Source of the DNA: a virus
Direction: 5' to 3' (one strand)
Virus record (IMG/VR): IMGVR_UViG_3300035687_000009
Location: 1-52,709 of that record
DNA: 52,709 nt
Positions 5,369-33,069 of this stretch are shown here, piece by piece. A program made the position numbers and the translations under genes. Every line of letters begins with the position of its first letter. The stretch's first letter is position 1. The notes beneath the pieces are model-generated. The model ran no database searches, was not told the origin of the DNA, and saw nothing but the letters and a program-made list of their open reading frames with translations.

Positions 5369-5638
5369 ATGGGGAAGGAAAAGACACAATTCAAACCCGG
5401 AAATTCAGGTAAACCAAAAGGAGCGGAAAACAAAACTACAAAAGCCGCCAAGGCGCTATTCCTGGGAATTATGGATGGTGAGGTTGAGCACATTAAGCGC
5501 TCCCTTGACACGATCCGGGCTAAAGATCCCGCGAAATACCTGGAAGTCCTATCTAAATTCTTTCCATACTTCATGCCTAAGAAGCTCGAAATCGACACCC
5601 CGACAGAGATAACAGTCAATGTCAAGCGTAGAGATTGA
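5369..5638 (+). CDS. terS: Terminase small subunit-like protein, 89 aa
   Basis: The N-terminus (KTQFKPGNSGKPKGAENKTT) is the basic GNxGKPKG motif common in phage terminase-associated small proteins (DUF5681-type). The C-terminal part is helical. It overlaps terL by 20 nt, and the pairing with the large subunit supports the role. It would bind packaging-site DNA and recruit the large subunit. Confidence 0.75.
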   Translation: MGKEKTQFKPGNSGKPKGAENKTTKAAKALFLGIMDGEVEHIKRSLDTIRAKDPAKYLEVLSKFFPYFMPKKLEIDTPTEITVNVKRRD

Positions 5639-6935
5639 TTTCTATTTACCCAAACTCCACCCTGCGCAAAAGGTAATAATGCAGCAGGCTAAAAGGTTCA
5701 ACCACCTCCGATGCGGCAGGCGTTTCGGGAAAACAACACTTATTCAGGAATTAACATCAATTGCCCTTGAGGGGAAAAGAGTAGGCGTATGGTTCCCGGC
5801 ATACAAGGACCTGGCGGAGGTATGGACAGAAGTTAAGCTTTTGTACAAACCGGTTCCTCATGAGGTCTATGAATATATTGACATAATCGATAAGAAGGAC
5901 GAACAACTCAAACAAATCCGGTTACTCGGAGGGGGATTAATTGATTTCTGGTCGATGGAGAATCCTGACTCTGGCCAGGGTCGGAAATATCACCGGGCGA
6001 TTGTAGATGAGTCGGCGAAAGCCCAAAAGCTATACACAGCTTGGGAAAACACCATCCGCCCAACGCTCACCGACTACAAAGGGGACGCCTTCATAATGTC
6101 CAGGCCAAAAGGGAAAAATGCAGGAGGAACTGCGGAGCACCCGGGGAATGGGTTCTACCTTCTAGAGGAAAAACATAAGAAGTTTTTAAACTGGGCCTTC
6201 TTCCATTTCACCACATATGATAATCCATACATGGAGCATAGTGAAATCGAGGAGGCAAAATTACAGCTCGATGATATCAACTTCCGCCAGGAATACATGG
6301 CTGAATATGTCGATGCCAACGACAGGCCCTTCCTGTACAAGTTCGATGAAAAGAAGCATGTTATTGATTTTTACAAACCCAACCCTCACCTACCTATCCT
6401 GGTAAGCTTTGACTTCAACAAAGACCCAATGACCGCCTTGATCGGCCAACAAGTAGATATCTTCACCTCTTATGCTTTTGCTGAGATCAATCTTCCAGAA
6501 GGATCCACCCCGGAGGTTTGCGATCTTATAATTACCGATTATGTTCACTGGCTCTATAGGGATATTGAAGTCACCGGAGACGCAACAGGGAGAAACAGAT
6601 CTGCAATGGTAAAAGGGAACCTGAATCATTACCGGATAATCCAGGATAAATTAAGGTTATCCGATGATCAGTTAAGAAATCCGACAGCCAATTTAGCCCA
6701 TTCTGATAGCAGGGTGCTGTGTAACTCAGTGCTGCAGAATGCAAAGTTCTATATCACAAAAGACTGCAAAAAAACAATCAAGGACGCAATTTCAGCGTAT
6801 GTGGACGCCTCCGGCGAACTAGTGAAAACCCAGGCTGAAGGACTACACCACTTCGATACACTCCGGTATATGATCCATGCCTTTTACCCTGATTTTATTA
6901 CTGATCCAGATCAATACCAACAAGCAGAAGAATAA
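5619..6935 (+). CDS. terL: Terminase large subunit, 438 aa
   Basis: The ATPase domain shows a Walker A (GRRFGKTT, residues 33-40) and a Walker B ending in VDE (residues 129-131). The C-terminal RNase H-like nuclease domain shows SFDFNKDP near residue 265, GDATGRNRS and a late HHFDTLRY acidic position. Length is typical of the family. It translocates DNA into the prohead and cuts concatemers. The start overlaps terS; the next gene follows after a hairpin. Confidence 0.93.
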   Translation: MSSVEIDFYLPKLHPAQKVIMQQAKRFNHLRCGRRFGKTTLIQELTSIALEGKRVGVWFPAYKDLAEVWTEVKLLYKPVPHEVYEYIDIIDKKDEQLKQIRLLGGGLIDFWSMENPDSGQGRKYHRAIVDESAKAQKLYTAWENTIRPTLTDYKGDAFIMSRPKGKNAGGTAEHPGNGFYLLEEKHKKFLNWAFFHFTTYDNPYMEHSEIEEAKLQLDDINFRQEYMAEYVDANDRPFLYKFDEKKHVIDFYKPNPHLPILVSFDFNKDPMTALIGQQVDIFTSYAFAEINLPEGSTPEVCDLIITDYVHWLYRDIEVTGDATGRNRSAMVKGNLNHYRIIQDKLRLSDDQLRNPTANLAHSDSRVLCNSVLQNAKFYITKDCKKTIKDAISAYVDASGELVKTQAEGLHHFDTLRYMIHAFYPDFITDPDQYQQAEE

Positions 6936-6941
6936 TAAATT

Positions 6942-6972
6942 CCCATAATGGTTTGTATTTTCCATTATTGGG
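6942..6972 (+). other. Hairpin between terL and the glycosyltransferase cassette
   Basis: CCCATAATGG (6942-6951) pairs with CCATTATTGGG (6962-6972) with one bulged T. There is no T tract after it, so it is a weak terminator at best. It marks the left border of the inserted cassette and could be an mRNA processing or attenuation site. Confidence 0.4.
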
Positions 6973-7015
6973 ATTTAGTATTGTAATGGGATTACGGTTT
7001 ACGATCCCTACCTGA

Positions 7016-7537
7016 ATGACGGTTGACATCGTAGGAACTGGGGCCACGTCCCAGAACTGGAAACAACATGATTACTCCATCGGCGTTAATGATGCCTGGA
7101 AATTTGGTCAGCCAACAGACGCACTTTTAGTCTGTAACCGCCCCCAACAATTCACACCTAATCGGATTGAGATAATAATAAACTCAAAGCCTAAAGATTT
7201 TTTCTCACACAAAGCAAACTGGGCTGAGTGGTTTCCAAAATGGAAACAAATAAATCTCGTTACCTGGTACGGCACACTTAATCCAAAACAGGTTTACAAT
7301 TCTGACACTTCACCCTTCATTGCAATATCACTGGCTTACAATCTTGGAGCGAAAGAAATAATTCTTTGGGGAGTTGATTTCATTTCTCATCACATCTATA
7401 ACACAGGAAATACAGATACAAAAAATGAGGTGGAAAGGTATCTGCAATTATTTGAAGCGCTGAAAGAAAGGGGTGTGAATGTATTTGTGGGATCTGAGGG
7501 CGGAGTGTTTGAAAGGCATTTATCAGTTTATTCATGA
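7016..7537 (+). CDS. Rossmann-like glycan enzyme (GT42/MptE-like), 173 aa
   Basis: The start MTVDIVGTGATSQNW resembles the N-terminal nucleotide-binding loop of the DUF115/GT42 sialyltransferase-like superfamily. The later segment AISLAYNLGAKEIILWGVDF matches the conserved A..LG.KEI.L.G.DF pattern of that group. At 173 aa it is shorter than the usual 250-300 aa of GT42 enzymes. It is the first gene of the cassette, ATGA-overlapped with the next. Sugar donor and acceptor cannot be predicted. Confidence 0.6.
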   Translation: MTVDIVGTGATSQNWKQHDYSIGVNDAWKFGQPTDALLVCNRPQQFTPNRIEIIINSKPKDFFSHKANWAEWFPKWKQINLVTWYGTLNPKQVYNSDTSPFIAISLAYNLGAKEIILWGVDFISHHIYNTGNTDTKNEVERYLQLFEALKERGVNVFVGSEGGVFERHLSVYS

Positions 7538-8166
7538 CTCCATTTTGCACTATAACACCCACTCGCTCTGATCGCCCTCAATTACTTGAGTTCTGCAAAC
7601 ATCAGCTTTCCAGAATGAGTGTAAAACCAGATAAGTCTTACTTCATAGACTACCCTGCGGCAAATGAAAGCATTGACATTGTGGAGAGAGTGAAGAACGG
7701 TGTTCACCTGGCAAAGGCAGAAGGCTTTGAATACGCTTTCATTATCGAGGATGACGACTGTTATCCCGCGGACTTCTTTGAAAGCTTTGATATCGGCAAC
7801 TATTTATTTTATGGTAGCGAAGAAACAACCTATTACAACCTACGGAATAGATCTTATAATATCTTCCAACACGCTCGCAGGTCAAGCCTGTTTACTACTG
7901 GCTTTAACATTTCAGCATTAAAAGGATTTAATTGGTATGCTCCGAGAAATAGATTCCTTGACGTCAGCCTTTGGCAATATGCCGAACAGCAGCCCACGCA
8001 ATTTATTAAAACCAAAGCGATAGGCATGAAACACAACTTAGGGCTATGCGCTGGCAAGGGACACACTCACCAGGGAAAATATTCAGACCAAAGTTTAGAA
8101 TGGCTGAAAGCAAATACAGATAGTGAACAGTTTGATTTTTATAAAACATTAATGGAGAAACTATAA
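7534..8166 (+). CDS. GT-A glycosyltransferase-like protein, 210 aa
   Basis: It begins with a typical GT2-like strand (CTITPTRSDRPQ). An acidic metal-binding cluster, EDDDCYP, lies at about residue 73 after the strand YAFII. The rest is compact, with aromatic residues, and lacks membrane segments. GT-A enzymes use nucleotide sugars with a divalent metal bound by the DxD motif. The cassette position supports the call; the substrate is unknown. Confidence 0.7.
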   Translation: MTPFCTITPTRSDRPQLLEFCKHQLSRMSVKPDKSYFIDYPAANESIDIVERVKNGVHLAKAEGFEYAFIIEDDDCYPADFFESFDIGNYLFYGSEETTYYNLRNRSYNIFQHARRSSLFTTGFNISALKGFNWYAPRNRFLDVSLWQYAEQQPTQFIKTKAIGMKHNLGLCAGKGHTHQGKYSDQSLEWLKANTDSEQFDFYKTLMEKL

Positions 8167-8174
8167 ATGTAAAA

Positions 8175-8420
8175 ATGGGATGTGATAAACAATCATACTT
8201 CACAAGAGCTGAGGCAAAAAAAGCCAGGAAGAAAATAAACCAACTTGGCACCGTCCGCGAAAGCTTAAAAACAATTTACCGCTGTGAGTGGTGCCATGCT
8301 TACCACCTCAGTTCCATTGAAAAAACGAAGAGCAGAAAATTCAAAAGGTTGAATCTATTTAAGCAGAAGGAAAATTCAGAATTAGAAGAACTGAGAAAAC
8401 AAGTAAGTAAAAACATATAG
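8175..8420 (+). CDS. Small zinc-ribbon-like phage protein, 81 aa
   Basis: The sequence YRCEWCHAYHLSS places Cys37, Cys40, His41 and His44 in a knuckle after a basic helical N-terminus. This resembles small phage proteins with a YxCxxCGxWHLTS motif. It sits among the glycosyltransferase-like genes and may bind nucleic acid or only be structural. Metal binding is inferred from the Cys/His spacing. Confidence 0.6.
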   Translation: MGCDKQSYFTRAEAKKARKKINQLGTVRESLKTIYRCEWCHAYHLSSIEKTKSRKFKRLNLFKQKENSELEELRKQVSKNI

Positions 8421-8423
8421 CCA

Positions 8424-8729
8424 ATGATAACAGAGAAGGAAATGAAATCTATTCCAAAGGGCCGCTGGTCTAATTCCGCGTTACGCCAGGTATTTGGAAA
8501 GAAGCATGGATCGCCAGTCAGTGAAATGACAAAGGATGGAAACCAGGTAACAATAATTGGCAATAGGTTTCAACGTAGATTCAGACTGAATCATCCATTC
8601 AAGCAGATACCAGTTAAGGATGAAAAAGCAAAATTCCAAAGCAACCGCATTGAGAATAAAAAGCAGTTAACGTTGATGCGTAAGATCATTCAGTTCTTTG
8701 CGTACTTATTTAACCGGAAAGCTGCATGA
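8424..8729 (+). CDS. Hypothetical basic protein, 101 aa
   Basis: The product is basic and rich in Lys, Arg and Gln (RFQRRFRLNHPF), with no recognised domain and no membrane segment apart from a weakly hydrophobic stretch near the C-terminus (IIQFFAYLFN). It begins 3 nt after the preceding stop and overlaps the next gene by 4 nt, so it is part of the cassette transcript. Confidence 0.55.
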   Translation: MITEKEMKSIPKGRWSNSALRQVFGKKHGSPVSEMTKDGNQVTIIGNRFQRRFRLNHPFKQIPVKDEKAKFQSNRIENKKQLTLMRKIIQFFAYLFNRKAA

Positions 8730-9295
8730 TCCTCCTCTCTATCCTTATATGTCACATCCCTGAGCGGTACGACTTCATGAAGCGGTTATCCGGAATATTG
8801 GATCCGCAGTTGGAGAAGTACAAAGCTTCCGTTAACAGTTTCATTGATGATTCACGCTATAAGAAAATCGGAAGGAAACGGAATGAGCTTGTCGCCAGAG
8901 CTAACGGAAAGTATTTATGTTTCATCGATGATGACGACAGGGTAAGCGACAATTATATCGAACTGCTTTTGGAAGGGATTAAAAAAGATGTGGACTGCTG
9001 CAGCCTGAAAGGGATCATTACTGAGGATGGAGAAAACCCGTTGCTATTCGAGCACTCGATTAAATATAAAATTTATAAGACTGTAACGGATTCTATGGAA
9101 GGTGATATAAGATATGAACGTTATCCAAACCATCTGAACGTTGTTAAAAAAGAGCATGCTAATAGATTCCCATTTCCAGAAACGAACCACGGTGAAGATA
9201 CCGATTACGCTACTCAGATGTTCAAAGCCGGCGTCTTAAAAAGTGAGCATTATATTGATCAGGTTATTTACTATTACGATTACAGAAGAAAATGA
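8726..9295 (+). CDS. Family 2-type glycosyltransferase, 189 aa
   Basis: It has the N-terminal GT2 strand (SILICHIPERYDFM), then GRKRNELVARANGKYLCFID with the metal site FIDDDDRVS at about residue 72, and a late acidic region (NHGEDTDYATQMF) that matches the catalytic ED motif position of GT2 enzymes. It is short for GT2, and no membrane anchor is seen. It lies inside the cassette and couples by ATGA with both neighbours. Confidence 0.78.
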   Translation: MILLSILICHIPERYDFMKRLSGILDPQLEKYKASVNSFIDDSRYKKIGRKRNELVARANGKYLCFIDDDDRVSDNYIELLLEGIKKDVDCCSLKGIITEDGENPLLFEHSIKYKIYKTVTDSMEGDIRYERYPNHLNVVKKEHANRFPFPETNHGEDTDYATQMFKAGVLKSEHYIDQVIYYYDYRRK

Positions 9296-9477
9296 AAACA
9301 GACGTAAAAATGGATGTTACAACCGACGCCTCTCAAACGTGTAAAGCAATAAAGGCAGTCACATTTGCAGTTAATGATTTAAAGAAAGCTATTGATCAGC
9401 TGAATGAAACATCCATTACAATCAGCATCCAATCAGAAAGCATACACCATAAACGCTGGTATCAGTTTTGGAAATGA
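9292..9477 (+). CDS. Small hypothetical protein, 61 aa
   Basis: It overlaps both neighbours by 4 nt. It looks like one long amphipathic helix (AIKAVTFAVNDLKKAIDQL) and a basic, aromatic C-terminal tail (KRWYQFWK). No family is recognised. Such small helical ORFs alternate with the enzymes along the cassette. Confidence 0.5.
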   Translation: MKTDVKMDVTTDASQTCKAIKAVTFAVNDLKKAIDQLNETSITISIQSESIHHKRWYQFWK

Positions 9478-9692
9478 AAATGTATGTCCAAAAAGTGATC
9501 GGAGGGCAGTCTAGGTATTTCTATGAATCCTGGTATTTAAACAATCATGGTGCGCCCTGCGTATTCAGAACACCTTTTAGGGACCATCATAATAACGAGG
9601 ACCTTAAAAGTTTATATAAATTCATCTACCAACTGAAGGATAATATTCAGAAGTGTATAAACACAGAGACAGATCTATCAATAGAAATATGA
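9474..9692 (+). CDS. Hypothetical protein, 72 aa
   Basis: The ATG at 9474 is chosen because it overlaps the preceding stop by 4 nt as in neighbouring genes. A TTG two codons upstream is possible. The sequence (YVQKVIGGQSRYFYESWYLN) is aromatic and beta-like, without a recognised domain. Confidence 0.5.
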   Translation: MKMYVQKVIGGQSRYFYESWYLNNHGAPCVFRTPFRDHHNNEDLKSLYKFIYQLKDNIQKCINTETDLSIEI

Positions 9693-10576
9693 GAGCAATC
9701 AGCTATTCACTTTTTGGTTATAACAAAGAACGTCAGGCAAATTGCTTTGACTTCAATTCATATTTACGCGGGATGCATATTTGTCTGCGCTTCAATAGGA
9801 TTCTTTTCCCTGACTGGCAGATGGTTGTTAATATTGACGGTTCCACCTTCGATTCTCCTTACCGTCCTATCTTCGAATGGCACCAAGCAAAAGGATTTAT
9901 CCGCTTTAATATTCAAGATAACGACACCCAGCTTTGTAAGGCAATGCTGTGGAGATTTAAAACAGTCTTTGATTACGATCATCCCGACTGGCGCTACTCT
10001 CATGTAATCTGCCGGGACCTGGACTCTATCCCTACTTACCGTGAGGCTCAAATGGTTCAGGAGTGGGTGACCGAAGATAAAGCATTGCATTGTATTACCG
10101 ATTCAGTTTCACACACTATCCCAATGATGGGTGGACTTGTAGGCTTCAGACCTGGATATGCTAAAGACCTGCTTGGACTAAGGACTAATCCAGAATCATG
10201 CTTTGATAAGCTTATTGAAAGGGCGGCAATTAATTACAGTATAAAAGGATCTGATCAGACATTTTTGAATCAAGTAATTTATCCATCGCTGGCAGATCAT
10301 TGCACCGAACATTTCATAAAGGGAATGTCCCATAATAAGAAGGAGGAAAACGGAAGGCATTACCGCATCGATGAAAGCCTGGAAATCGGAGTTGATCCTA
10401 AATTCAAAGAAACAAATCTGCTTGCCGGACATGCCGGTGCTGCTGGTTTTTATGAAACCCCTACTATGAAATTTCTTTATTGGGATGATCCATTCAAAGA
10501 AGATTATAAGGAACTGGAGACTATGAAAGGATTTGAACAGATATTTTACTGGCAAACACGGGAGGATTTAAGATGA
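9689..10576 (+). CDS. GT-A-like glycosyltransferase, 295 aa
   Basis: The start at 9689 (MRAISYSLFGYNKER) is preferred over an upstream in-frame ATG because of the ATGA overlap. It shows a CRDLDSIP acidic motif near residue 110, typical of DxD nucleotide-sugar enzymes, then a segment with HTIPMMGGLVGF and GSDQTFLNQVIYP (an acidic D-Q motif found in family 8/32-like enzymes). It is the largest enzyme of the cassette. Donor and acceptor are unknown. Confidence 0.7.
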   Translation: MRAISYSLFGYNKERQANCFDFNSYLRGMHICLRFNRILFPDWQMVVNIDGSTFDSPYRPIFEWHQAKGFIRFNIQDNDTQLCKAMLWRFKTVFDYDHPDWRYSHVICRDLDSIPTYREAQMVQEWVTEDKALHCITDSVSHTIPMMGGLVGFRPGYAKDLLGLRTNPESCFDKLIERAAINYSIKGSDQTFLNQVIYPSLADHCTEHFIKGMSHNKKEENGRHYRIDESLEIGVDPKFKETNLLAGHAGAAGFYETPTMKFLYWDDPFKEDYKELETMKGFEQIFYWQTREDLR

Positions 10577-10818
10577 AAATAATCGAATGTAATGTCTGGT
10601 GCTCGGAGAGTGATAAGAATCGAGAACTCGGTTTACCTGACGGTGATTGCTGGATGCCTATCGCTATTGACTTTGATGTGGTGGCTACAATCAAAGAGGC
10701 CGGCCCGAATGACTTCCTGGGGCATGGAAAGGCGACGGTCTACGTAAACGGATCACACTTTATAATTGATATAGAATATCAAGAGGCTGTAAAAATTTGG
10801 AAGCGTACGATTTTATGA
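10573..10818 (+). CDS. Hypothetical protein, 81 aa
   Basis: A small acidic protein with beta-strand pattern (GKATVYVNGSHFIIDIEYQE). No family is recognised. It sits between a glycosyltransferase and a methyltransferase and overlaps both by 4 nt. Confidence 0.55.
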   Translation: MKIIECNVWCSESDKNRELGLPDGDCWMPIAIDFDVVATIKEAGPNDFLGHGKATVYVNGSHFIIDIEYQEAVKIWKRTIL

Positions 10819-11309
10819 AGCGCATTGAAGGAGAATGGCGATACTTTGACGAGGCACTACAGATGCCATATCCATGGTACACAAAACCGGCGTTAACGGT
10901 TCTGGATAGAATGGTACTGAATCGGAAGCGGATATTTGAATTCGGGGCCGGTGATTCTACGTTATGGTTTCGCGAGAAAGGGGCACAGGTCTGGAGTGTT
11001 GATAATAACATGGAATGGGCAACGAAAATAAACTGCGATTTCCAGGCTTTTTACAATGAGTATGTCAGCACAATCGACCGTGCTGGAGAGTTCAATATAA
11101 TCTGTGTTGATGGCGTGTGGCGCGATGAGTGCGTAATCAGAGGATGGGATCATTTGAAGAAAGGCGGGCTGATGATCGTTGATAATTATAAGCAGGCATC
11201 CGTAGAAATGCACTGGCCTAAAACGGAAGAATTAATTAAAGGTAAAAATTATACTATACATAAAGAGCCTGACCATTACGATTGGCAAACATTAATGATC
11301 ATAAAATGA
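10815..11309 (+). CDS. Class I SAM-dependent methyltransferase-like, 164 aa
   Basis: It begins at 10815 (MKRIEGEWRYFDEA). Motif I is EFGAGDSTLWF near residue 47, a Gly-rich SAM-binding loop, followed by WSVDNN at strand 2 with an Asp for the ribose. A later VDGVWRDECV and GGLMIVDNY match motifs of the class I fold. Sugar or small-molecule O-methylation is likely in this context, but the target is unknown. Confidence 0.7.
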   Translation: MKRIEGEWRYFDEALQMPYPWYTKPALTVLDRMVLNRKRIFEFGAGDSTLWFREKGAQVWSVDNNMEWATKINCDFQAFYNEYVSTIDRAGEFNIICVDGVWRDECVIRGWDHLKKGGLMIVDNYKQASVEMHWPKTEELIKGKNYTIHKEPDHYDWQTLMIIK

Positions 11310-11500
11310 AGATCTCAAAGAAAGTTGAAACAGCTGAAGCGCTATTCCTGGCAATGATAAGGAACGCAAAGTTTTCACTCTCTGCAATGAACTTCGCGCC
11401 GGAGGAAATAATTGAACTGGAATCGTTCACCAGGCCATACCGGGATAAATTGAATGAGATTGAAGCAATGGAAAGAGAAATAAATGACACCCTGAAATGA
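11306..11500 (+). CDS. Small helical hypothetical protein, 64 aa
   Basis: The ATG at 11306 overlaps the preceding stop. The protein is helical and charged (MKISKKVETAEALFLAMIRN), with an acidic C-terminus (EIEAMEREINDTLK). No family is recognised. Confidence 0.5.
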   Translation: MKISKKVETAEALFLAMIRNAKFSLSAMNFAPEEIIELESFTRPYRDKLNEIEAMEREINDTLK

Positions 11501-12306
11501 AAAAGTATATCGTATTATCGGTTAATGACAATGTGGATTACTTATACTTCACACCTTTAGTATGCTGGGCGTGGAGACGTTTAGGATGGGAGCCTTTACT
11601 GTTTTTTAGAGGCGATATGACTGATCCAATTGCAATGATGGTTTTTAAAAATGCCAACATCGATAAGAACAATGGTTATCAACTTTCACAGCAGGACGGT
11701 TACCGGTCCGACACGATAACACAGATATCCAGGCTTTACGCCGGCTGTGTTATCGATACACATGATATGGTAATGACAGGAGATATTGATATGATCCCGC
11801 TTTCAGATTACTGGAAACCAAAGCAAGAGGACGTTACTGTTTATGGGCATGATCTTACTGGCTATGGTCATTATCCAATTTGTTACATAGCAATGGATGG
11901 CTACAAATGGGCGGAGGTTATGAATTTGGTGAACTTTGATTATGACGAACACATCAAGCGTGATCTCGATACTCTCCCACAAGCAAAGGATCTTGACTTC
12001 TATAAATATTGGTTTTCGGACCAGGACTTGATCACAGCGAGGTTAAACGAATATGGTAAAGAGAAGATAACCTTTATCAATCGCGGACAAGGATCACATG
12101 GTTACGCAAGAGGTCGTATTGACAGGGGTTCAAATGGATGGGTACTTGATCAACCGGAACTTATCGATGCTCACTTAATGCAACAGACGCACCATAGTAA
12201 TGAAAAAATCCAAAAACTTATGGATCTATTGCATCATGTTTGGCCGAAAGAAGATTGGAAGTGGTTCTTGGAATATACTAAGGAATTTAAAAAACTATCG
12301 ATATGA
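11497..12306 (+). CDS. GT-A-like glycosyltransferase, 269 aa
   Basis: The N-terminal strand/turn (KKYIVLSVNDNVDYLYF) and the DxD region MTGDIDMIPLSDYW near residue 92 are as in family 8-type enzymes. A late motif SDQDLITARLNEYG matches the conserved D-Q(D/E) helix that follows the active site in these proteins. It carries a HGYARGRIDRG segment and has no membrane anchor. A substrate cannot be assigned. Confidence 0.72.
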   Translation: MKKYIVLSVNDNVDYLYFTPLVCWAWRRLGWEPLLFFRGDMTDPIAMMVFKNANIDKNNGYQLSQQDGYRSDTITQISRLYAGCVIDTHDMVMTGDIDMIPLSDYWKPKQEDVTVYGHDLTGYGHYPICYIAMDGYKWAEVMNLVNFDYDEHIKRDLDTLPQAKDLDFYKYWFSDQDLITARLNEYGKEKITFINRGQGSHGYARGRIDRGSNGWVLDQPELIDAHLMQQTHHSNEKIQKLMDLLHHVWPKEDWKWFLEYTKEFKKLSI

Positions 12307-12464
12307 GAATACACATCCCTGACGTAGTCGTTCGTATACACTGGCATGCCAGTTATAAAATTAAATGGATCCCAAGTGAGGGAAATAGTGCCGTAAGTTT
12401 CGGTCGTAAATACAGATTTTATTATTGGCTAAAGTATCAGATTGAGTTCGTTACACATGAATAA
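12303..12464 (+). CDS. Small hypothetical protein, 53 aa
   Basis: A short frame (starts MRIHIPDVVVRIHW) that overlaps the upstream stop by 4 nt and the downstream start by 8 nt, filling what would otherwise be the only gap in this part of the cassette. It is basic and aromatic (GRKYRFYYWLKYQIEF). No family is recognised. Confidence 0.5.
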   Translation: MRIHIPDVVVRIHWHASYKIKWIPSEGNSAVSFGRKYRFYYWLKYQIEFVTHE

Positions 12465-13089
12465 GCGTTGTATAGTAAATGTTGCTACCGGGGAATTCTA
12501 CGGTAAGATGCAGGAGAGATTAGTTGAATCATTATCTCAAAGTATAGACTATGGAATAGATCTAATGACATGGAGCGACTGCCTACCTGAAGGCTCACGT
12601 CTTCATTCAGAATCCCCATACGGTTTTAAAGTTCACGCTATAAAAGCAGCTTATGAGAAAGGTTATACTTCTATCCTTTGGCTGGATTCTCCTGCGTACG
12701 CGGTTAAAGAAGATGTATCGCCAATATTTGAGAAGATTGAAAAAGAAGGATATTATGCTATGAGTCATATCGACCCATTGGAAAATTGGGTTGGTGATAC
12801 CGTTCTGAAATATTATAACAACGTGAGGCGTGAAGCTCTTGTAGGTAAGAACCTACCATCTGGTTCATGTTATGGTTTTGATTTTACGAGCCGCGGTGGA
12901 AGTATATTCCACGGAATGCAGAGGGCGGAAGAAGCCGGCATGTTTAAATCTGAACCAATTGGAGAGGGAACATGGCACAGGCATGATGAGGCAATATTGG
13001 CAATGGAATTAGGTAGTCTGAAGATCTTCACTAACGATCCATTATTTCAAAGCGATAGTCCGGAGTGTGTAATTAAATCAGGTGGATGA
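12457..13089 (+). CDS. Glycosyltransferase-like protein with altered DxD, 210 aa
   Basis: It starts at 12457 (MNKRCIVNVATGEFYG). A GT-A-like core has SILWLDSPAYAVKED near residue 75, where the expected DxD is replaced by D-S-P. Later FTSRGGSIFHGMQRAEEAG and HRHDEAILAM provide a second acidic site. The missing second Asp suggests a metal-independent or divergent enzyme, or an acceptor-binding paralogue. Confidence 0.55.
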   Translation: MNKRCIVNVATGEFYGKMQERLVESLSQSIDYGIDLMTWSDCLPEGSRLHSESPYGFKVHAIKAAYEKGYTSILWLDSPAYAVKEDVSPIFEKIEKEGYYAMSHIDPLENWVGDTVLKYYNNVRREALVGKNLPSGSCYGFDFTSRGGSIFHGMQRAEEAGMFKSEPIGEGTWHRHDEAILAMELGSLKIFTNDPLFQSDSPECVIKSGG

Positions 13090-13703
13090 AAACAATAGAT
13101 CAGCATACTTTCGATGAAAGGCTTTTAAATGGACGATGGGTCATTGATGCCGGATGCCGTGGATTTAACTTCACGAACTATTGCCTCGATCGTTGTAATG
13201 TATACGCTTTGGATATAGAGGACTTCAGTAATAATGAAGATGTTTCAATAGTAAGAAAATATTTTTCAAAGCTTATATTTAAACAAGCCGCATTAACCAA
13301 CTACTCAGGGCAAACAGAATGTTATCTATGGGGTAATGGGTACGGCAACTTCATCAAAGGAATAAACGGTGAGCCTGGCAGCACCGAAGACAGGCCAGTT
13401 CAGAAGATCACGGTTCCGGCTATCACGCTACAGGATATTTACAAAGAGATCGGAACGGATATTGACTTATTAAAATTAGATATCGAAGGTGCAGAGTACA
13501 GGGTATTGGGCGAAGGTTTCGAACCTATCCCGAAACAAATCACAGTTGAAACACATGAGCATTGCCACACTGATCTCCATAATACTTACTGGCCAGAAAT
13601 ATGGGAAAGGCTTTGTAAAGATTACCATGCCTCACTCTATATAAGTGAATGGCCCAAGTATAAGTTTATGGATTGTTTATTTATAAGGAAAGATATTCTA
13701 TGA
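13086..13703 (+). CDS. FkbM-family methyltransferase, 205 aa
   Basis: The SAM-binding loop VIDAGCRGFNF is near residue 19, followed by VYALDIEDF. The highly characteristic FkbM motif LLKLDIEGAEYRVL is near residue 135. FkbM enzymes methylate hydroxyls of sugars or natural products. The family and the cassette context favour sugar O-methylation. It overlaps both neighbours by 4 nt. Confidence 0.82.
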   Translation: MKTIDQHTFDERLLNGRWVIDAGCRGFNFTNYCLDRCNVYALDIEDFSNNEDVSIVRKYFSKLIFKQAALTNYSGQTECYLWGNGYGNFIKGINGEPGSTEDRPVQKITVPAITLQDIYKEIGTDIDLLKLDIEGAEYRVLGEGFEPIPKQITVETHEHCHTDLHNTYWPEIWERLCKDYHASLYISEWPKYKFMDCLFIRKDIL

Positions 13704-14386
13704 TCTACGCTTTTAATTTCACATGCGATCGTGATAATGACCTTAGTAATTTAATGGTGCAAACTCTTTACCGGCACTGTGATGACCTCAAAGAATTAGT
13801 TGTAATCAACACCGATCACAACCTGGACTATCGGGGTTATGGTAATGGCGCTGGGTGGCCTCAAAGTATGCTGAAATTAAAAAGGCTAAGAGAATTTAAT
13901 CCAGCAGATGACGACTTTATTTTGTCCGTGGATAGTGATGTGGTGTTCGGCAGCCGTGAAGTATTTATCCAGTTAGATAAGCAGTACGGAATCATCGGCA
14001 CCAAACATATTCCAGAGTTTAACACCGCGCTGGGTAAATGGTCACACATGAGCGGGGCATTAATATTCATCCGCGGGGATATTGCAAAAAAGATGGCTGC
14101 TTTGGATGAGACTACTTTGAACATGATAAGGTTTCAACACTTCAAACCATTTAGATTAACGGAAAATGAAGATGTGGTATTAAGTTACCTGGCTTCCTAT
14201 TGTGGGGCAAATCAATTCAGCCTTCCAAGTTTTTTAAGTTCGGGAAATTTTGAAAGCGAGGTAAAAGAAAAAAAATTAAGAAGCTTTTACCATCTTAACT
14301 ATTGTCCGACACAATTCTTAGGTGAGGAGGTGGCCGGCAAATGGGACATCCCTAAAATACTGAAATCAAAAGGAATAGAATTATGA
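13700..14386 (+). CDS. GT-A-like glycosyltransferase, 228 aa
   Basis: The ATG at 13700 (MIYAFNFTCDRDND) is used, overlapping the preceding stop. A canonical acidic motif LSVDSDVVFG lies near residue 76, and GTKHIPEFNTALGKWSHMSG and TENEDVVLSYLA complete the GT-A-like pattern. No membrane region is seen. Confidence 0.72.
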   Translation: MIYAFNFTCDRDNDLSNLMVQTLYRHCDDLKELVVINTDHNLDYRGYGNGAGWPQSMLKLKRLREFNPADDDFILSVDSDVVFGSREVFIQLDKQYGIIGTKHIPEFNTALGKWSHMSGALIFIRGDIAKKMAALDETTLNMIRFQHFKPFRLTENEDVVLSYLASYCGANQFSLPSFLSSGNFESEVKEKKLRSFYHLNYCPTQFLGEEVAGKWDIPKILKSKGIEL

Positions 14387-14676
14387 TATACAAAATAATT
14401 TTAGACGGACAGACCTTCGAATGCTTATTGGATAAGGATGAGGTGTATAGTGGTATTTACTCGGGATATTGCAGACAACCAGACAACGAAAATCGTCATT
14501 ACTTCGATTATAAATTTTGTTGGCGCGGTGTATGGGAAGGTAGACTATATTTTAAGGATTCAGAATATTGGTCTGAAGATTTAGACTTAATGAATAGGAT
14601 CTGGATAATTCTCGAAAACAAATTGAAGGAAATGATTCGGGAATCAAATCCTGATATAAAAAAAGAATACGAATGA
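14383..14676 (+). CDS. Hypothetical protein, 97 aa
   Basis: A small aromatic-rich protein (RHYFDYKFCWRGVWEGRLYF) with an acidic C-terminus. No family is recognised. It overlaps the neighbours on both sides by 4 nt. Confidence 0.5.
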   Translation: MIYKIILDGQTFECLLDKDEVYSGIYSGYCRQPDNENRHYFDYKFCWRGVWEGRLYFKDSEYWSEDLDLMNRIWIILENKLKEMIRESNPDIKKEYE

Positions 14677-15188
14677 GGCACCGATTTATAGATAATCTTT
14701 CACACTGGAATTCATATTTGCCGCTTTTATGGGAGGCTCTTGAATCTACCAAAGGTGATGTTATCGAGTTGGGGATGGGTGACGGATCAACAGAGAAGCT
14801 CCATGAATATTGCAGGCAGAATAGCCGGAAGTTATTCTCCTATGAATCCAATGAAGCATGGTATAGGAAATTTGAAAAGTTAAATACCGTAGATCATAGA
14901 CTTGAATACGTTGGGCCAAACTGGCAACCAATGATTGAGAATCACAGAGGGGAAGTTGGCGTTTTATTCTCAGACGAGGCACCTGGGGAGATGAGGAAAT
15001 ATAATATTTCAATGTTTTGCAATATCGCTCAGGTGATTGTTGCGCACGACACGGAGCCAAGTAATGATGGAGGGTATAAATTCTCTCTGATAAAACCGCT
15101 GTTTAAATATATAAAGCATTTTCAATTTCAGGGCGCGGACGCAACGGCGTTCAGTAATTTTATTGACGTAACAAAATGGAGTATTTAG
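14673..15188 (+). CDS. Class I methyltransferase-like protein, 171 aa
   Basis: Motif I reads VIELGMGDGSTEKLHEYC near residue 30, a SAM-binding loop. It is followed by LFSYESNEAWYRKF, where an acidic residue would contact the ribose, and by an IVAHDTEP segment. It resembles the 10815 gene product in layout but not closely in sequence, so the cassette contains more than one methyltransferase lineage. Confidence 0.65.
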   Translation: MRHRFIDNLSHWNSYLPLLWEALESTKGDVIELGMGDGSTEKLHEYCRQNSRKLFSYESNEAWYRKFEKLNTVDHRLEYVGPNWQPMIENHRGEVGVLFSDEAPGEMRKYNISMFCNIAQVIVAHDTEPSNDGGYKFSLIKPLFKYIKHFQFQGADATAFSNFIDVTKWSI

Positions 15189-15376
15189 AAGGTATATGTA
15201 TATGTAAGTGTGAGTGTCACATAAAAGGGAATATAGTACTTCATTTTATAGCGTGTTGTGAACTCACTGGCGAGTCTTATATAAACATCGATGGTAGTAT
15301 TGATTTTGAAATTTATAAAAAACTTATTAACGGGTCAGATGACCAAAACAAAACTTCTACGATTATGAGTGATTGA
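15176..15376 (+). CDS. Cysteine-rich small protein, 66 aa
   Basis: The N-terminus has five Cys and a His within 25 residues (ICICKCECHIK, then ACCE), suggesting metal binding, possibly with disulfides if exported. No signal peptide is evident. It overlaps the preceding gene by 13 nt and the next by 4 nt. Confidence 0.5.
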   Translation: MEYLEGICICKCECHIKGNIVLHFIACCELTGESYINIDGSIDFEIYKKLINGSDDQNKTSTIMSD

Positions 15377-16092
15377 TTTCCTTAATCCACCCCTCCAGAG
15401 GCAGACCATACAAAAGTAATGTCACCACTACAAAATGGCTGTCAGCAGCCGGCATCGAAGATGTTGAACTAATTGTTTCTATTGATGACAACGATCAGAA
15501 CAGAAGACAATATTTCGATATCTATTCTCACTACGATCCATTTAAAACCAAAATAATCTCCAGCGCTAACCGTTCGGCCGTTGATGCTATTAACAACGGA
15601 GCTAAAGAAGCAAAGGGTGATATCCTTATTGTCGTTTCTGATGATTCCGATTGCCCGGAAGGATGGGGAAGAACAATCCTGGAAGCTACAATAGACAAAA
15701 AAGATTTTGTTTTAAAAACTTATGACGGCGTTCAGAAGTGGATTGTTACCATGCCGGTAATTGACCGCGCTTATTACAACAGGTTCAACTACATCTATCA
15801 TCCGGACTATTCGCATATGTTCGTGGATACAGAATTCACACATGTTGCCGATGTCTTGAAAAGAATTATCTGGCGCAATGATATTTCATTCCCACACTTG
15901 CACTACTCCGTAACAAAAGGTAAGAAGGATGAAGTAAGTAATAGGGCGGATGCCACGTGGACACAAGGGAAGGTTTTATACTTAAAACGCTTCATGGAAA
16001 AATTCGGCCTCGATGAGAGTGTTAATGTTTGGGATGTGGCAAGTGAGGGGCATAAGAAGTGGATTCAGGATGCAATGCGACTGAAGGTATGA
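15373..16092 (+). CDS. Family 2-type glycosyltransferase, 239 aa
   Basis: It opens with the GT2 strand (MISLIHPSRGRPYKS) from a TTG that overlaps the previous stop (TTGA). An acidic region VVSDDSDCPEGWG appears near residue 88, preceded by AINNGAKEAKGDILIV, a standard GT2 arrangement. Later GKVLYLKRFMEKFGL is helical. It is predicted to transfer a sugar from a nucleotide donor; the acceptor is unknown. Confidence 0.75.
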   Translation: MISLIHPSRGRPYKSNVTTTKWLSAAGIEDVELIVSIDDNDQNRRQYFDIYSHYDPFKTKIISSANRSAVDAINNGAKEAKGDILIVVSDDSDCPEGWGRTILEATIDKKDFVLKTYDGVQKWIVTMPVIDRAYYNRFNYIYHPDYSHMFVDTEFTHVADVLKRIIWRNDISFPHLHYSVTKGKKDEVSNRADATWTQGKVLYLKRFMEKFGLDESVNVWDVASEGHKKWIQDAMRLKV

Positions 16093-16847
16093 AGATAGCC
16101 GCGATTTATTGTGTTTGGTTTGACGGGATGGATCTGCTGCCGTACTCAGTTAATAATATTCTACCTGTTGTGGATGGTGTTATTATTATTTGGTCGAACT
16201 ACTCAAACCACGGAGAGTATAAACCATTTACTCTAACTCCTGCGGATGATAAAGTTAAAATGTATCAATGTGAACCCGCACAATTTGGAAACGCACATCA
16301 AAGCGAAAGGGAAAAGCGAAATTTTGGTTTGGATAAAGCGCGGCAACTTGGATTTACTCATTTTATTATGCTTGATGCTGATGAGTTTTACGAACAATCT
16401 GATTTCCAGATCGAAAAGGATTATATCGAAAAGAATAATACCGCTGGAACAGTTTGCAGAACACAAGTATATTTTAAGAAGCCAACATACTTTTTACCTG
16501 ACCATACACTAGTTCCATTTATTCACAAAATAACGCCAACATTAAGATTTCAGCACAACAATAAAACATATCCATTTACCTACGATAAGGATGGCAATGC
16601 CCACATCGACCCTACCAGGAGGCTTAATATTACCGATGGTGTGGAGTGGTCAAATATTACAATGCATCATTTTAGCTGGCTGAGATCTGACTACAATTTA
16701 AAAATCGAGAATTCAGTAGCCAGAAAGAATCTAAAAGCGTCAACCATTTACGCTGATCTTCAGAAGGCCGCGCCAGGGGTTTATAATGATTTCTACCGTG
16801 CTGAAATAAAAGAGTGTGAAAACATATTTAACCTTCCGGATCTATGA
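16089..16847 (+). CDS. Family 2-type glycosyltransferase, 252 aa
   Basis: The ATG at 16089 (MKIAAIYCVWFDG) is chosen by its ATGA overlap. The DxD site is IMLDADEFYEQ, after KARQLGFTHF. This resembles the GT2-like enzymes with a lethal(2)-type LDADEF motif. There is no transmembrane anchor. It is the last clear enzyme of the cassette. Confidence 0.78.
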   Translation: MKIAAIYCVWFDGMDLLPYSVNNILPVVDGVIIIWSNYSNHGEYKPFTLTPADDKVKMYQCEPAQFGNAHQSEREKRNFGLDKARQLGFTHFIMLDADEFYEQSDFQIEKDYIEKNNTAGTVCRTQVYFKKPTYFLPDHTLVPFIHKITPTLRFQHNNKTYPFTYDKDGNAHIDPTRRLNITDGVEWSNITMHHFSWLRSDYNLKIENSVARKNLKASTIYADLQKAAPGVYNDFYRAEIKECENIFNLPDL

Positions 16848-17125
16848 TAGAATTTATTATACATCTTGTTATTGGGTCGCTCTTCGTTTGGGGGGTATTC
16901 AAAATATTTGATGATCTTCTTTTGCCGGTTCGAGTAAAGATTGAAACGTGGTTAGGCCCAAAATGGAGTAAGCCTATGGTAACATGCCCGCCGTGCATGG
17001 CCTCGTTTCATGGGATATATTTAGGACTTATTTTCTTTGGCGCTGACTGGATTATTATTTTATACTGTGTGTCCCTTTGTGGGTTGAATTATTTGATCCA
17101 GCAATTTCTACCTGAATATGATTAA
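16844..17125 (+). CDS. Small membrane protein with CPPC motif, 93 aa
   Basis: The protein has a hydrophobic N-terminus (residues 4-20) and two hydrophobic C-terminal segments. Cys48-Pro-Pro-Cys51 lies in the loop between them (TCPPCMASFHG). It recalls DUF1360-type phage membrane proteins with a CxxC loop. Membrane location suggests that it might anchor the cassette enzymes or act on the envelope; that is inference. Confidence 0.6.
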   Translation: MIEFIIHLVIGSLFVWGVFKIFDDLLLPVRVKIETWLGPKWSKPMVTCPPCMASFHGIYLGLIFFGADWIIILYCVSLCGLNYLIQQFLPEYD

Positions 17126-17250: not shown

Positions 17251-17862
17251 ATGATAAAATTTATTAAAAATCTATTCAAAGCAAAACCAAAAAATCCGGT
17301 ATTTAATATTCATCATCCGGACATAGCACCGAATATTGAATTTGCTTTTGAGGCCGCAGGTAGGAAGTTTTATCGATTCGTTAAGGACTATCAAATGCCG
17401 ACCGGGAGGTATAAGTATGCAGAGGCCTTTTTGTATGAATCAGAATTAAGGATGAATTTAAAAACCTTGAATTCCTACATGGATGAGATCGAGAAAAACA
17501 TTGACGGATCAAAAGGAGTAATAAATATCAGCAAAGTGATTCAGGTGATTTGGGCTATTCGTGGACGCTGTAAGCTTGCGTTCTCCCCTGAAACAATTGA
17601 GCGCCTTGCAACCGCTATTTATTTCGATGAGAGTGAGGATCTAAGTAGTTTAAATATAGAGTATGCCGAGGAGAAAATTAAGTTCTTCAGGAAGCATAAA
17701 GTAATTACTTTTTTTTTGACCAAGCCTATGAGCGATTTATTGGGACTCAGCGGTTTCACCGAAACACATTTTCAGACCTTTTTGAACCAGGTGGAGCAAG
17801 CGGAGCAACTGATAAAAGACTTGATGTTCGATCCAGAGAAGCCTTCTTTGCCGAACACATAA
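17251..17862 (+). CDS. Tail assembly chaperone, short form (G-like), 203 aa
   Basis: This gene directly precedes the tape-measure region, where tailed phages usually carry two tail assembly chaperone products from one start. The protein is helical and acidic in the second half. Its frame contains a T9 run at 17710-17718 in the codon phase T TTT TTT, and a second frame in -1 phase stays open from that run to 18008. So the short form ends at 17862 and a frameshifted product continues. Assignment as chaperone rests on position and the frameshift; sequence families of these proteins diverge strongly. Confidence 0.7.
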   Translation: MIKFIKNLFKAKPKNPVFNIHHPDIAPNIEFAFEAAGRKFYRFVKDYQMPTGRYKYAEAFLYESELRMNLKTLNSYMDEIEKNIDGSKGVINISKVIQVIWAIRGRCKLAFSPETIERLATAIYFDESEDLSSLNIEYAEEKIKFFRKHKVITFFLTKPMSDLLGLSGFTETHFQTFLNQVEQAEQLIKDLMFDPEKPSLPNT

Positions 17863-18008: not shown

Positions 18009-18106
18009 GAAACTTATTATATTTACATAGCGTATCTATCAGGTACAGGCCGTTTCAGGCAATACAAAATCTCCATTCCTATGAACGTTGGCAGAGAGAA
18101 CGGTAA
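18005..18106 (+). CDS. Possible 33-aa ORF between chaperone and tape measure
   Basis: A short frame starting MRNLLYLHSV overlaps the frameshift product by 4 nt (ATGA) and the TTG start of the tape measure gene by 19 nt. It is basic. It may only be a coupling ORF that keeps ribosomes moving into the tape measure cistron. Confidence 0.3.
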   Translation: MRNLLYLHSVSIRYRPFQAIQNLHSYERWQRER

Positions 18107-20343
18107 ACGTCAGGATAAATTACACGGTCAATACCGCTGAAATTCAAAAGGCCCAGGCTGCATCCCAAGCAGCCCAAAAAGCAACTGATGATCTAAGAAG
18201 AGCTTCTGAACAATATGGCAAGGCTTCCACCGCTGCCCATAAGGAAAACTCCGCCGGCGCCAAGCTGGCCTCTCATGATGTAGGCAGCCTTTCAAAAGAA
18301 TTCAATTCACTCTACAGCGCAATCAAACTTGTTATCTCTGCGGGACTGGCTAGAGAATTATTTGATGCAACACTGGCAGCGGCAAAACTATCTGGAACAA
18401 TAGATGGAGTGCAAAGGGCATTCAATAGAATCCCAAATGCGACACTTATAATGAATCAACTCCGGAAGGCCACTCATGGAACGGTTTCGGATTTGGAGTT
18501 AATGCAAAAAGCCTTAACAGCTCAAAACTTTCGTATCCCATTAGAAAAATTAGGTACTCTTCTTGAGTTCGCGGCAGTCAAAGCTCAACAGACAGGCCAG
18601 GAGGTAAATCACTTAGTTGATTATATAGTTTCAGGTATTGGTTATCGCTCCATCAAACGTCTTGATGACTTAGGCTTCACGGCGAATCGTGTGAAGGAGG
18701 CATTAGGTGGAGTCAGTCTTCAGGCTGCTGACATGGGACAGGTGATGGATGCTGTTACAAAATTAATGGCTGAGGATTTAGGAAAAACTGGTGGGTTCGC
18801 CAAAACTTCCGCCACCGAGGTCGAGCGGTTAGCGATAAAATGGAATGCGCTTAAAGTAGCTGTATCCGAAGCGTTAACCTCTCCAGCGTTACTAAAATTC
18901 TACGAGGGTACTGTAGATGCTCTAAAGGAAGGCTTCAATGTAACCTTTGGTAATAATGAAAAAATAAGGGAACAAGAGGTTAAACGCGCAGCGGCTGAAG
19001 AGGTTGAGAGTTTCAAAAAAATGCATCTTACTAAAGAGGTATTAAAAAGTAAGGAAAAAATAAACACTGTAATTCAAAAGGAGATTGATTCCAATAAAAT
19101 TGTCATAGCTGATAATGAGAAAGAAATGGCTCAGCTAAAAGAAAGATTCGCCTTTTTAACAGATGAGGCAAATACAAGACATAGGGATCATAATGAAACA
19201 CAGGAAGAAATTGACCGGATAAAGGAGCAGCATAAATATTATCTAGAGAGAAACGCAGTTCTTCGGGAAGGCAATAATATTCTTTTTGAATATAGAGAAG
19301 AGCTGGAAAAAACTCTTAAAAGTGGCAGTATACCGGTAATGATTTTCAAGGCGGGGTTCGATGATGAGGCATCATTCCGGGAATACAAAAGAATTAAGAA
19401 AGAGATTGAAGACGACTCTAAAAAAGACGAGATAGATTTTACGTTCAAATTCTCAGAAGAAGATGCCAAAAGAGTCCAACAGGAGGCTTACGATTTCATG
19501 AAGGGTGAACTTGCTAAGGATGATGGGCCTTCGATAGAATTGGCTGATATTCTTTTTGGGCCAGAAAAAAAACGATCAACAGATTGGGAACTTTTAAGGG
19601 ACGAGTTCAAAGAAAACTGGCGTGGGATATTATCTCAGGGATTTGATGATACCGCGAATTTCTTACACATGCTTCAAGAGGCTGAATTGAGCCAGATGCA
19701 GAATAGAATAACGAACATTAGAAATCATTATGATAATGAATTATTACTCGCTGGGGATAACGAGCGGCGTAAAAAAGAAATAGCGATTAAGGAAGCCCGC
19801 GAAATTGAAAAAGTTAGAAGGGATATCGCCATGAAAGAATGGCAATCCAGAAGAAACGGCGTCTTAATAGATACTGCCGCCGGTATCGCAAAAAACTTCG
19901 CGCAATATCCATGGCCTGAGTGGATCATCCCTGTTGCAGTCACCACAGCACAAGGGGCTGCACAACTTTCAGCTATTGACAGGGCAAGGCCACGTTTTGC
20001 AAAAGGCGTCCTAAATCTTCAGGGGCCAGGGACAGGAACAAGTGATTCTATTTCTGCTTACCTCTCAAAGGGTGAATCCGTAATGACAGCCGATGAAACC
20101 AGGAATTCATTAGGCATCCTAAAAGCAATCAAAGAAAATAAAATTGACGACCGTATACTAAAAAATATTGATTTCACCGGCGGGCGCACAGTTCATGCCT
20201 CATTGAACGATTCTCGAATTGTAGACGAATTACAGGCGATCAGAAAGGGCCAGTACAACATCGAAGAGCAGGGACGTCAATTATTCAGAGTCTATTCCGA
20301 TCGCCAGGGTAACAAGAAACGCATAAGAAGCAAATCCATTTAA
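18088..20343 (+). CDS. Tail tape measure protein, 751 aa
   Basis: The TTG at 18088 is the only reasonable start; the next in-frame Met is far inside. The N-terminus is Ala- and Gln-rich helix (NTAEIQKAQAASQAAQKATD), followed by a globular domain (residues 100-260) and long charged coiled coil. The C-terminus has the tape-measure ending GPGTGTSDSISAYLSKGE. At 751 aa it is short, predicting a short tail if it follows the usual length relation. It would template tail tube assembly. Confidence 0.85.
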   Translation: MAERTVNVRINYTVNTAEIQKAQAASQAAQKATDDLRRASEQYGKASTAAHKENSAGAKLASHDVGSLSKEFNSLYSAIKLVISAGLARELFDATLAAAKLSGTIDGVQRAFNRIPNATLIMNQLRKATHGTVSDLELMQKALTAQNFRIPLEKLGTLLEFAAVKAQQTGQEVNHLVDYIVSGIGYRSIKRLDDLGFTANRVKEALGGVSLQAADMGQVMDAVTKLMAEDLGKTGGFAKTSATEVERLAIKWNALKVAVSEALTSPALLKFYEGTVDALKEGFNVTFGNNEKIREQEVKRAAAEEVESFKKMHLTKEVLKSKEKINTVIQKEIDSNKIVIADNEKEMAQLKERFAFLTDEANTRHRDHNETQEEIDRIKEQHKYYLERNAVLREGNNILFEYREELEKTLKSGSIPVMIFKAGFDDEASFREYKRIKKEIEDDSKKDEIDFTFKFSEEDAKRVQQEAYDFMKGELAKDDGPSIELADILFGPEKKRSTDWELLRDEFKENWRGILSQGFDDTANFLHMLQEAELSQMQNRITNIRNHYDNELLLAGDNERRKKEIAIKEAREIEKVRRDIAMKEWQSRRNGVLIDTAAGIAKNFAQYPWPEWIIPVAVTTAQGAAQLSAIDRARPRFAKGVLNLQGPGTGTSDSISAYLSKGESVMTADETRNSLGILKAIKENKIDDRILKNIDFTGGRTVHASLNDSRIVDELQAIRKGQYNIEEQGRQLFRVYSDRQGNKKRIRSKSI

Positions 20344-29921: not shown

Positions 29922-31037
29922 ATGCCAGCATCGGCCTTCGATCATAATATCGCAGGGGCTTGTGAGAATATTCGCAAAGAAGCGGAAGATCTCTCAGGTT
30001 CTAATTACGCAATGGATTTAACCCGCTCTAATGGAGCGCTTGACTTCATTACCGATCCATCTAACGGTGGAGTTGAATCCGAATTAATCACACCAGCAGG
30101 AGAAAATGGAGCGAAACTTACAACGCTTAAAGTTCTCTATGATCAGCCTACCAGGGCTTGTCAGGCTTCCACAAGTTTGGACACTAATATTTGTAACGAC
30201 ACTGCTACAACGCCAACACGTAAGCAGTTTTTCAAAACCATCGGTAAGAAAATTTCTTCACCGGCTCGTTATTTTTCAAATAATGACCTGGTTATCCTGT
30301 GTCAGGGTTCAAAAGAATTTATTCAAAACCGATTGAAAAGTGATCTCAGGGCAACGAAAGAACTTTGGAATGAGGTTCTGCTCGCAGAACTGAACGCCAT
30401 GAAAGGTAAGATCTACCATTGGGATGGAACTGAAACATTATCCGGTAGCGGCAAATCTCTGCAGCTCCTCAGAACCGAGAACGGACATGATCTTCCTCAG
30501 CCAGGTAACTTCATCACGATTGCTCAGGACTTCACTAACATGAAGCTTAGCGGCGTTCCGGCGCTTATCGGTGATGGTTATTTTGACCGTTACATCCGTC
30601 TTAATCAACTTGCATGTTGTAATGCATCTACTCCTTATGCGGATGCGGTGAGTAATGCCGGGGTGGCATATTATTACGACCACAAGGCCAGTGATATTCT
30701 GGGCGCGAACAAAACAATTGTAATCCCTTACGGGATTATCCACCTGTTGACATTCAACCAAAATCAGAACATTGCCGATCTATTGGGTAATAACGGAAAT
30801 GTAGGCAGTGAATTTCATATGGTTATTCCTGATCCGGATTATCCTGGATTGAAGTGGAACTTTGATATGAAATGGGATTGCACTACGCTGCGTTGGAAAT
30901 ATATGTACTCAGTGCATTGGGATGTGTTCAACGTTTACCAGGCTGACAGTTTTGCTTCCGACAGCGGAACACCTGATTGTTCAGATGATAACGTTGGTAT
31001 TACCGGAGTATTCCAGTATAATATCACTCGCGGTTAA
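29922..31037 (+). CDS. Major capsid protein, 371 aa
   Basis: It lies 13 nt after the scaffold-like gene and before the neck genes. Length fits an HK97-fold capsid protein. Early region has NGGVESELITPAGENGAKLT; later IVIPYGIIHLLTFNQN and DPDYPGLKWNFDMKW. Two Cys pairs (ACQASTSLDTNIC, QLACCNAS) are unusual. No HK97 family name is certain from sequence, but position and length strongly support the call. Confidence 0.8.
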   Translation: MPASAFDHNIAGACENIRKEAEDLSGSNYAMDLTRSNGALDFITDPSNGGVESELITPAGENGAKLTTLKVLYDQPTRACQASTSLDTNICNDTATTPTRKQFFKTIGKKISSPARYFSNNDLVILCQGSKEFIQNRLKSDLRATKELWNEVLLAELNAMKGKIYHWDGTETLSGSGKSLQLLRTENGHDLPQPGNFITIAQDFTNMKLSGVPALIGDGYFDRYIRLNQLACCNASTPYADAVSNAGVAYYYDHKASDILGANKTIVIPYGIIHLLTFNQNQNIADLLGNNGNVGSEFHMVIPDPDYPGLKWNFDMKWDCTTLRWKYMYSVHWDVFNVYQADSFASDSGTPDCSDDNVGITGVFQYNITRG

Positions 31038-33067: not shown

Positions 33068-33069
33068 TT

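Follow-up and report, generated by a model that had tools for sequence, protein, structure and literature searches.

A terminase-linked cassette of glycosyltransferase and methyltransferase genes in an uncultivated phage as a candidate virion glycosylation system

The window analyzed here, the whole 52,709-base stretch of virus record IMGVR_UViG_3300035687_000009, carries between the packaging gene terL and the tail genes a cassette of 21 open reading frames (ORFs; g01-g21, 7016-16847) that, judged from its genes, probably builds a glycan on the phage's own virion subunits. Twelve of these ORFs are enzyme-like and comprise eight GT-A-type glycosyltransferases (GTs), one sialyltransferase/MptE-like protein, one FkbM methyltransferase, and two other S-adenosylmethionine (SAM) enzymes; searches of relatives gave no match to the small ORFs interleaved with them. 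This gene content and an operon-like layout are accompanied by GT-A fold models for g08 and g12, by long co-retention with terL, and by no detectable genes for sugar-donor synthesis, export, or base hydroxymethylation. We propose that the soluble enzymes, translated alongside the packaging and tail genes, would act in the cytoplasm, where the core GTs g20, g05, g08, and g12 would add sugars sequentially from the host nucleotide-sugar pool, O-methylation of the sugars would fall to the SAM enzyme g18 and, in phages that carry them, to g10 and the FkbM enzyme g15, and the accessory GTs g01, g02, g14, g16, and g21 would lengthen or diversify the chain, with glycosylation and methylation of virion proteins occurring stepwise before or during assembly. 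Beyond these observations, we infer the acceptor (the virion), the sequence in which the enzymes act, the sugars, and a benefit such as shielding of the particle or tuning of adsorption.

All 22 ORFs of the terL-to-tail interval (g01-g22) lie on the same strand, and the coordinates, strand, gene order, and acidic motifs of the block were as a first-pass annotation of this DNA had described them. Its estimate of about 12 enzyme-like genes between terL and the tail genes was borne out, with strong support for five, fair support for four, and weak support for three. Four-nucleotide ATGA/TTGA overlaps occur at 15 of the 21 junctions, or at 17 if translation of g07 and g11 begins at their internal ATGs (9474 and 11306, respectively), in agreement with the operon layout that it had read from mostly overlapping genes. 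The end of the block, which it had placed at 17125, had to be moved: g22 (16844-17125) is kept near terL in three phages that have no cassette beside terL (loci L003-L005) and therefore lies outside the cassette, as part of the terL/tail neighborhood. A hydrophobic segment makes g22 the sole ORF of g01-g22 that looks membrane-bound; none of g01-g21 has a strong transmembrane segment, the top 19-residue hydropathy being 1.58 (g21).

Assignments are strong for g05, g20, g15, g08, and g12, fair for g02, g21, g10, and g18, and weak for g01, g14, and g16. Both g05 (34.8 bits) and g20 (30.3 bits) score above the PF00535 cut-off of 23.3, and g15 reaches 57.5 bits with PF05050 (cut-off 22.7; 2.4e-15). 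By sequence, g08 and g12 matched no family; structure prediction, a check that the first pass had suggested, gave confident GT-A-type models for both (AlphaFold2 mean pLDDT, the predicted local distance difference test score, of 91 and 95), which matched 134 and 124 PDB chains, respectively, at E<=0.001. Among the 50 PDB matches listed for each, nearly all are glycosyltransferases, and the best include TarP/TarS, UGGT, glycogenin, GlyE, and LgtC, with template modeling (TM) scores to solved GT-A enzymes of just ~0.3-0.6. On these models g08 and g12 are strongly predicted to be GT-A-fold glycosyltransferases, and D96xD98 of g12 is invariant across aligned relatives. The PF00535 score of g21 (18.9 bits, 0.0015) falls under the cut-off, and its D96, D98, and E99 are invariant in 11 sequences; g02 shows a weak GT2 match in 4 of 14 members. 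The g18 protein, seen in 47 loci, has an invariant GxGxGST motif and weak Methyltransf_23/24 matches in a few relatives, and g10 was found in 6 related loci. Asp77 of g14 is invariant in 13 sequences, with weak GT8 (0.024) and UGGT (0.06) matches only, and the putative GT-A-like nature of g16 is read from D78-S79-D80, invariant in 9 sequences. Conserved in 11 loci, g01 matches the sialyltransferase family PHROG 4603 (1.3e-5) and stays below the cut-off of the MptE-like family PF01973 (0.0018; 18.5 bits, cut-off 34.6). Sequence profiles of g01, g02, g08, g12, g16, g18, and g21 had no match in the PDB. Recent tandem expansion of one GT is ruled out, because profile comparison linked the cassette enzymes solely as g02-g05, g02-g21, and g10-g18 (the last at 93%).

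When the g08 alignment was used as bait in IMG/VR, a g08 homologue was found on at least 88 stretches, and 62 loci held both g08 and terL, separated by distances within 6.7 kb. Many of these contigs are incomplete, which affects the gene counts: of the 62 loci, 58 carried g05, 47 g12, 46 g20, and 41 g18, and 29 had all five core genes. The usual core order, g20-g05-g08-g12-g18, lies on the upstream or the downstream side of terL, and in the synteny check that had been proposed dozens of IMG/VR contigs carried this core next to terL. The predominant arrangement in the nearest clade is g01-g02-g05-g08-g12-g16-g18-g20-g21; here g10, g14, and g15 are variable, and g20 precedes g05 in some members; g16 was detected in 12 viral contigs only. 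Upstream of the core, many relatives encode two additional proteins, one GT-like (from another PHROG family) and one GT2-like. Because the same genes recur in the same context in other viral contigs at 38-66% amino-acid identity, the cassette is more than a chance arrangement. HNH-type homing endonuclease-like ORFs were seen by eye between GT genes of relatives (L006 4450-4953 and 6332-6832; L008 5202-5768), and a small hydrophobic CxxC-type protein stands near terL in 50 loci (L079 12303-12590 and similar), g22 having a similar motif in the near clade.

Pairwise distances for g08 correlated with those for g05, g12, g18, and g20 (Mantel r 0.82-0.92) and with those for terL (0.85), values reached in 0 of 2000 shuffles, which ignore relatedness and so show shared history, not function. 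Median identity in the nearest clade was 48-57% for core genes, 34-43% for tail genes, and 40% for terL, and these phages share the virion region but not most of the early region. Given this co-divergence with terL, these identity levels, and the shared virion region, the cassette behaves, by sequence comparison, unlike a recently acquired accessory gene. The association with virion genes that the first pass had claimed is upheld by terL co-inheritance and by the position beside packaging and tail genes.

Two sister phages (loci L003 and L004; genomes G001 and G002), with terL 46-48% identical and with g22 and other neighbors kept, are missing the cassette beside terL. Loss from relatives with intact virion genes, which the first-pass annotation had held to speak against its proposal, is literally what these two show, yet both carry a replacement, a second GT/methyltransferase cassette located after the portal/head gene and containing homologues of g20, g14, and, twice, g05. 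In G001 this alternative cassette adds a TylF O-methyltransferase (1.2e-34), an FkbM protein, and two further methyltransferases and is followed by scaffold-like and putative capsid genes; in G002 it adds a sulfotransferase (PF03567, 1.2e-10; L115 9524-10063), and a sulfated glycan is possible. The L005 contig is too short to judge for a second cassette. A role tied to the particle is suggested by this second, dissimilar cassette, which lies elsewhere in the genome but likewise within the virion region.

A bridge to known systems is provided by g05, which aligns over 96% of its length, at 34% identity, with the GT part of Che8 gp108. The mycobacteriophage Che8 is reported to bear glycans on its major capsid protein (PMC11256854), and for cluster O phages PMC11600133 describes modification of capsid and tail-tube proteins by GTs lying downstream of an O-methyltransferase. 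Che8-type virion glycosylation (Freeman et al. 2023, cited in PMC11256854 and PMC11600133) resembles the cassette in combining a phage GT array with methyltransferase-like enzymes. Che8, however, has three annotated GTs at the right genome end, whereas the cassette places as many as nine GT-like genes next to terL in a different phage lineage; no homologue of Che8 gp109 or gp110 was detected among the cassette profiles, and g08, g12, and the other non-g05 profiles found no match in Che8. In Mycobacterium phage LittleE and Gordonia phage Yvonnetastic, too, g05-related GTs lie within or beside virion genes, respectively after the major capsid gene and upstream of terL, but the GT clusters of these two phages are smaller, are known from annotation only, and contain no match to the g08 and g12 profiles. 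The nearest viral fold matches of g08 are the giant-virus GT-like proteins A0A6G6XQ87 and A0A076FI77 (~21% identity), the named source of the latter being a eukaryotic virus; these proteins, in contrast, are not part of a terL-linked module.

Genes for donor supply and export were sought in 29 cassette or sister records, and none contained a lipid-carrier sugar-phosphate transferase (PF02397; controls positive in 9), GtrA (PF04138; controls positive in 7), or a sugar nucleotidyltransferase (PF00483; controls positive). The earlier claim that no nucleotide-sugar synthesis or flippase genes accompany the block thus survived direct PF00483 and GtrA searches, and no dedicated phage export system was seen among the lipid-carrier transferase and GtrA families. 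Since donor-synthesis families are absent while the controls are positive, the sugars most likely come from the host. Several points weigh against virion glycosylation: the putative capsid protein has no obvious Ser/Thr-rich tail, and no tail-tube protein was identified; g05 is the single cassette gene that connects to a system known from experiment; isolate phages offered no convincing match for g08, g12, or g20; and, as some of the 29-30 records are fragments, the absences are lower bounds.

The first pass had left open whether virion or surface glycans are decorated, and the g05-gp108 relationship and the sister cassettes favor the former. It is unlikely, in our estimate, that the enzymes modify host surface-glycan precursors (lipopolysaccharide or capsule) at the cytoplasmic face late in infection, keeping progeny from re-adsorbing to debris or excluding other phages. 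Soluble GTs could act on lipid-linked precursors, a tail-fiber-like protein with a PF03629 domain implies that surface sugars matter to this phage, and the integrase indicates that it may be temperate; yet GtrA and the lipid-carrier transferase are absent from the 29 records with working controls, g01-g21 include no membrane-anchored GT, and the cassette sits with virion genes and is co-inherited with terL, not with the integrase or the early region. The Gtr serotype-conversion cassettes of temperate phages share phage-borne GTs with the present one, which differs in having soluble GTs and neither GtrA nor a lipid-carrier transferase. We regard as rather improbable that host proteins or small molecules are modified, as counter-defense or metabolic takeover, with no glycan polymer being made: the late-gene position is compatible with such a role, and FkbM and other SAM enzymes accept many substrates, but many GT families in one operon with methyltransferases fit chain assembly better, and the TylF O-methyltransferase and sulfotransferase of the sister cassettes are typical of glycan decoration. 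Glycosylation of modified bases in phage DNA to evade restriction, in the manner of the T-even phages, is very improbable on sequence grounds, because the thymidylate-synthase-type hydroxymethylase was found in 0 of 30 cassette or sister records while controls were positive in 9 of 14, so that the T-even likeness is confined to phage GTs, and because several GT families plus methyltransferase-like enzymes exceed the needs of known base-glucosylation systems; in its favor are the adjoining packaging gene and the virus GT arrays known to decorate DNA (Pyle et al. 2024, cited in PMC12619734). A search for Tet/JBP oxygenases gave no match, but its control was silent too, which makes this negative uninformative about an oxygenase route.

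Outside uncultivated phages the cassette genes are rare. In 84,980 species genomes the g08 search, which relies on short patterns and so gives a lower bound, confirmed a single locus, in an Ignavibacteria metagenome-assembled genome (MAG; L014 4175-5765), where g08 and g12 lie paired among genes that look chromosomal, and in 396 sampled genomes of that MAG's phylum g08 occurred in 4 (3 partial) and g12 in 2. By tblastn against isolate phages, g08 and g20 gave very weak matches only and g12 gave none, and a megablast of the cassette region against phage isolates found no match. With one species-genome locus, few matches in the phylum, and no convincing isolate-phage match, the g08-g12 pair is near virus-specific as far as sequence searches reached. 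To our knowledge, particle glycosylation has been shown in phages for a few actinobacteriophages only; the kind of system is already known from them, and what is new here is that it is larger, occurs in other phages, uses mostly other GT families, and is inherited with terL. We offer more tentatively, as a possibility somewhat short of probable, that this near virus-specific set is a long-lived tailed-phage module inherited with the packaging gene, that it covers virions with a multi-residue oligosaccharide that is methylated and, in sister phages, perhaps sulfated, and that such a phage glycocalyx occurs widely among uncultivated phages and has so far escaped notice because the module is nearly missing from isolates. 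If so, virion glycosylation would be a common and old trait, given a conserved cassette with as many as twelve enzymes across dozens of environmental phages, and the cassette would be a source of small soluble GTs from undescribed families (g08, g12, g16), and it becomes testable which sugar chain is made, on which protein, and with what benefit outside animals with antibodies.

Table 1. Positions of the cassette enzymes and of flanking genes in the window.
Feature	Position	Strand	Basis
terL, large terminase subunit, cassette anchor	5619..6935	+	PHROG 2 terminase 5.3e-29
g01, sialyltransferase/MptE-like, possible GT	7016..7537	+	PHROG 4603, MptE-like below cut-off
g02, GT2-like (EDDDCYP)	7534..8166	+	profile link to g05 and g21
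g05, GT2, core	8726..9295	+	PF00535 2e-8; PHROG 14775 7e-32
g08, GT-A, core, near virus-specific	9689..10576	+	AlphaFold2 model, PDB GT-A matches
g10, SAM methyltransferase-like, accessory	10815..11309	+	profile link to g18
g12, GT-A, core	11497..12306	+	AlphaFold2 model, PDB GT-A matches, conserved residues
g14, probable GT-A (WLDSP), accessory	12457..13089	+	invariant Asp77, weak GT8/UGGT
g15, FkbM methyltransferase, accessory	13086..13703	+	PF05050 2.4e-15
g16, GT-A-like (SVDSDV), near clade only	13700..14386	+	D-S-D motif
g18, SAM methyltransferase-like, core	14673..15188	+	weak Methyltransf_23/24 in relatives, GxGxGST
g20, GT2, core	15373..16092	+	PF00535 4.8e-7; PHROG 14945 1.2e-17
g21, GT2-like (LDADEF), last cassette gene	16089..16847	+	PF00535 below cut-off, invariant residues
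g22, small membrane protein, overlaps g21, not cassette	16844..17125	+	kept after terL in L003-L005
Tail chaperone-position ORF	17251-17862	+	conserved in relatives, unnamed
Tape measure protein	18088-20343	+	PHROG tape measure families
Putative capsid protein	29922-31037		

Terminase, tape-measure, and portal genes were recognized in the genome; by tblastn the portal and putative capsid proteins had no isolate-phage match, and a host assignment based on terL found no close relative in the 396 sampled genomes of the Ignavibacteria MAG's phylum. Named relatives of the encoded integrase come, with few exceptions, from Bacteroides, Parabacteroides, and Phocaeicola phages and plasmids, and for this reason the host is probably a member of the Bacteroidota. 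Scans for expression signals showed no clear excess of the Bacteroidota promoter motif (3 found versus 1.35 expected from a crude shuffle) and near-chance levels of sigma-70 promoters and terminators; a hairpin at 6936-6977, in the 80-nucleotide terL-g01 spacer (fold z-score -2.3), may be a terminator, an attenuator, or a processing site. The start sequence recurs from ~52,566, within a pentapeptide-repeat-like ORF, and the genome accordingly looks circularly closed; this ORF spans the circular junction (1-416 and 52294-52709), and its repeats make the end overlap imperfect. The tail-fiber-like ORF at 33046-34455 bears a carbohydrate esterase domain (SASA, PF03629, 6.6e-6) that may target host surface sugars.

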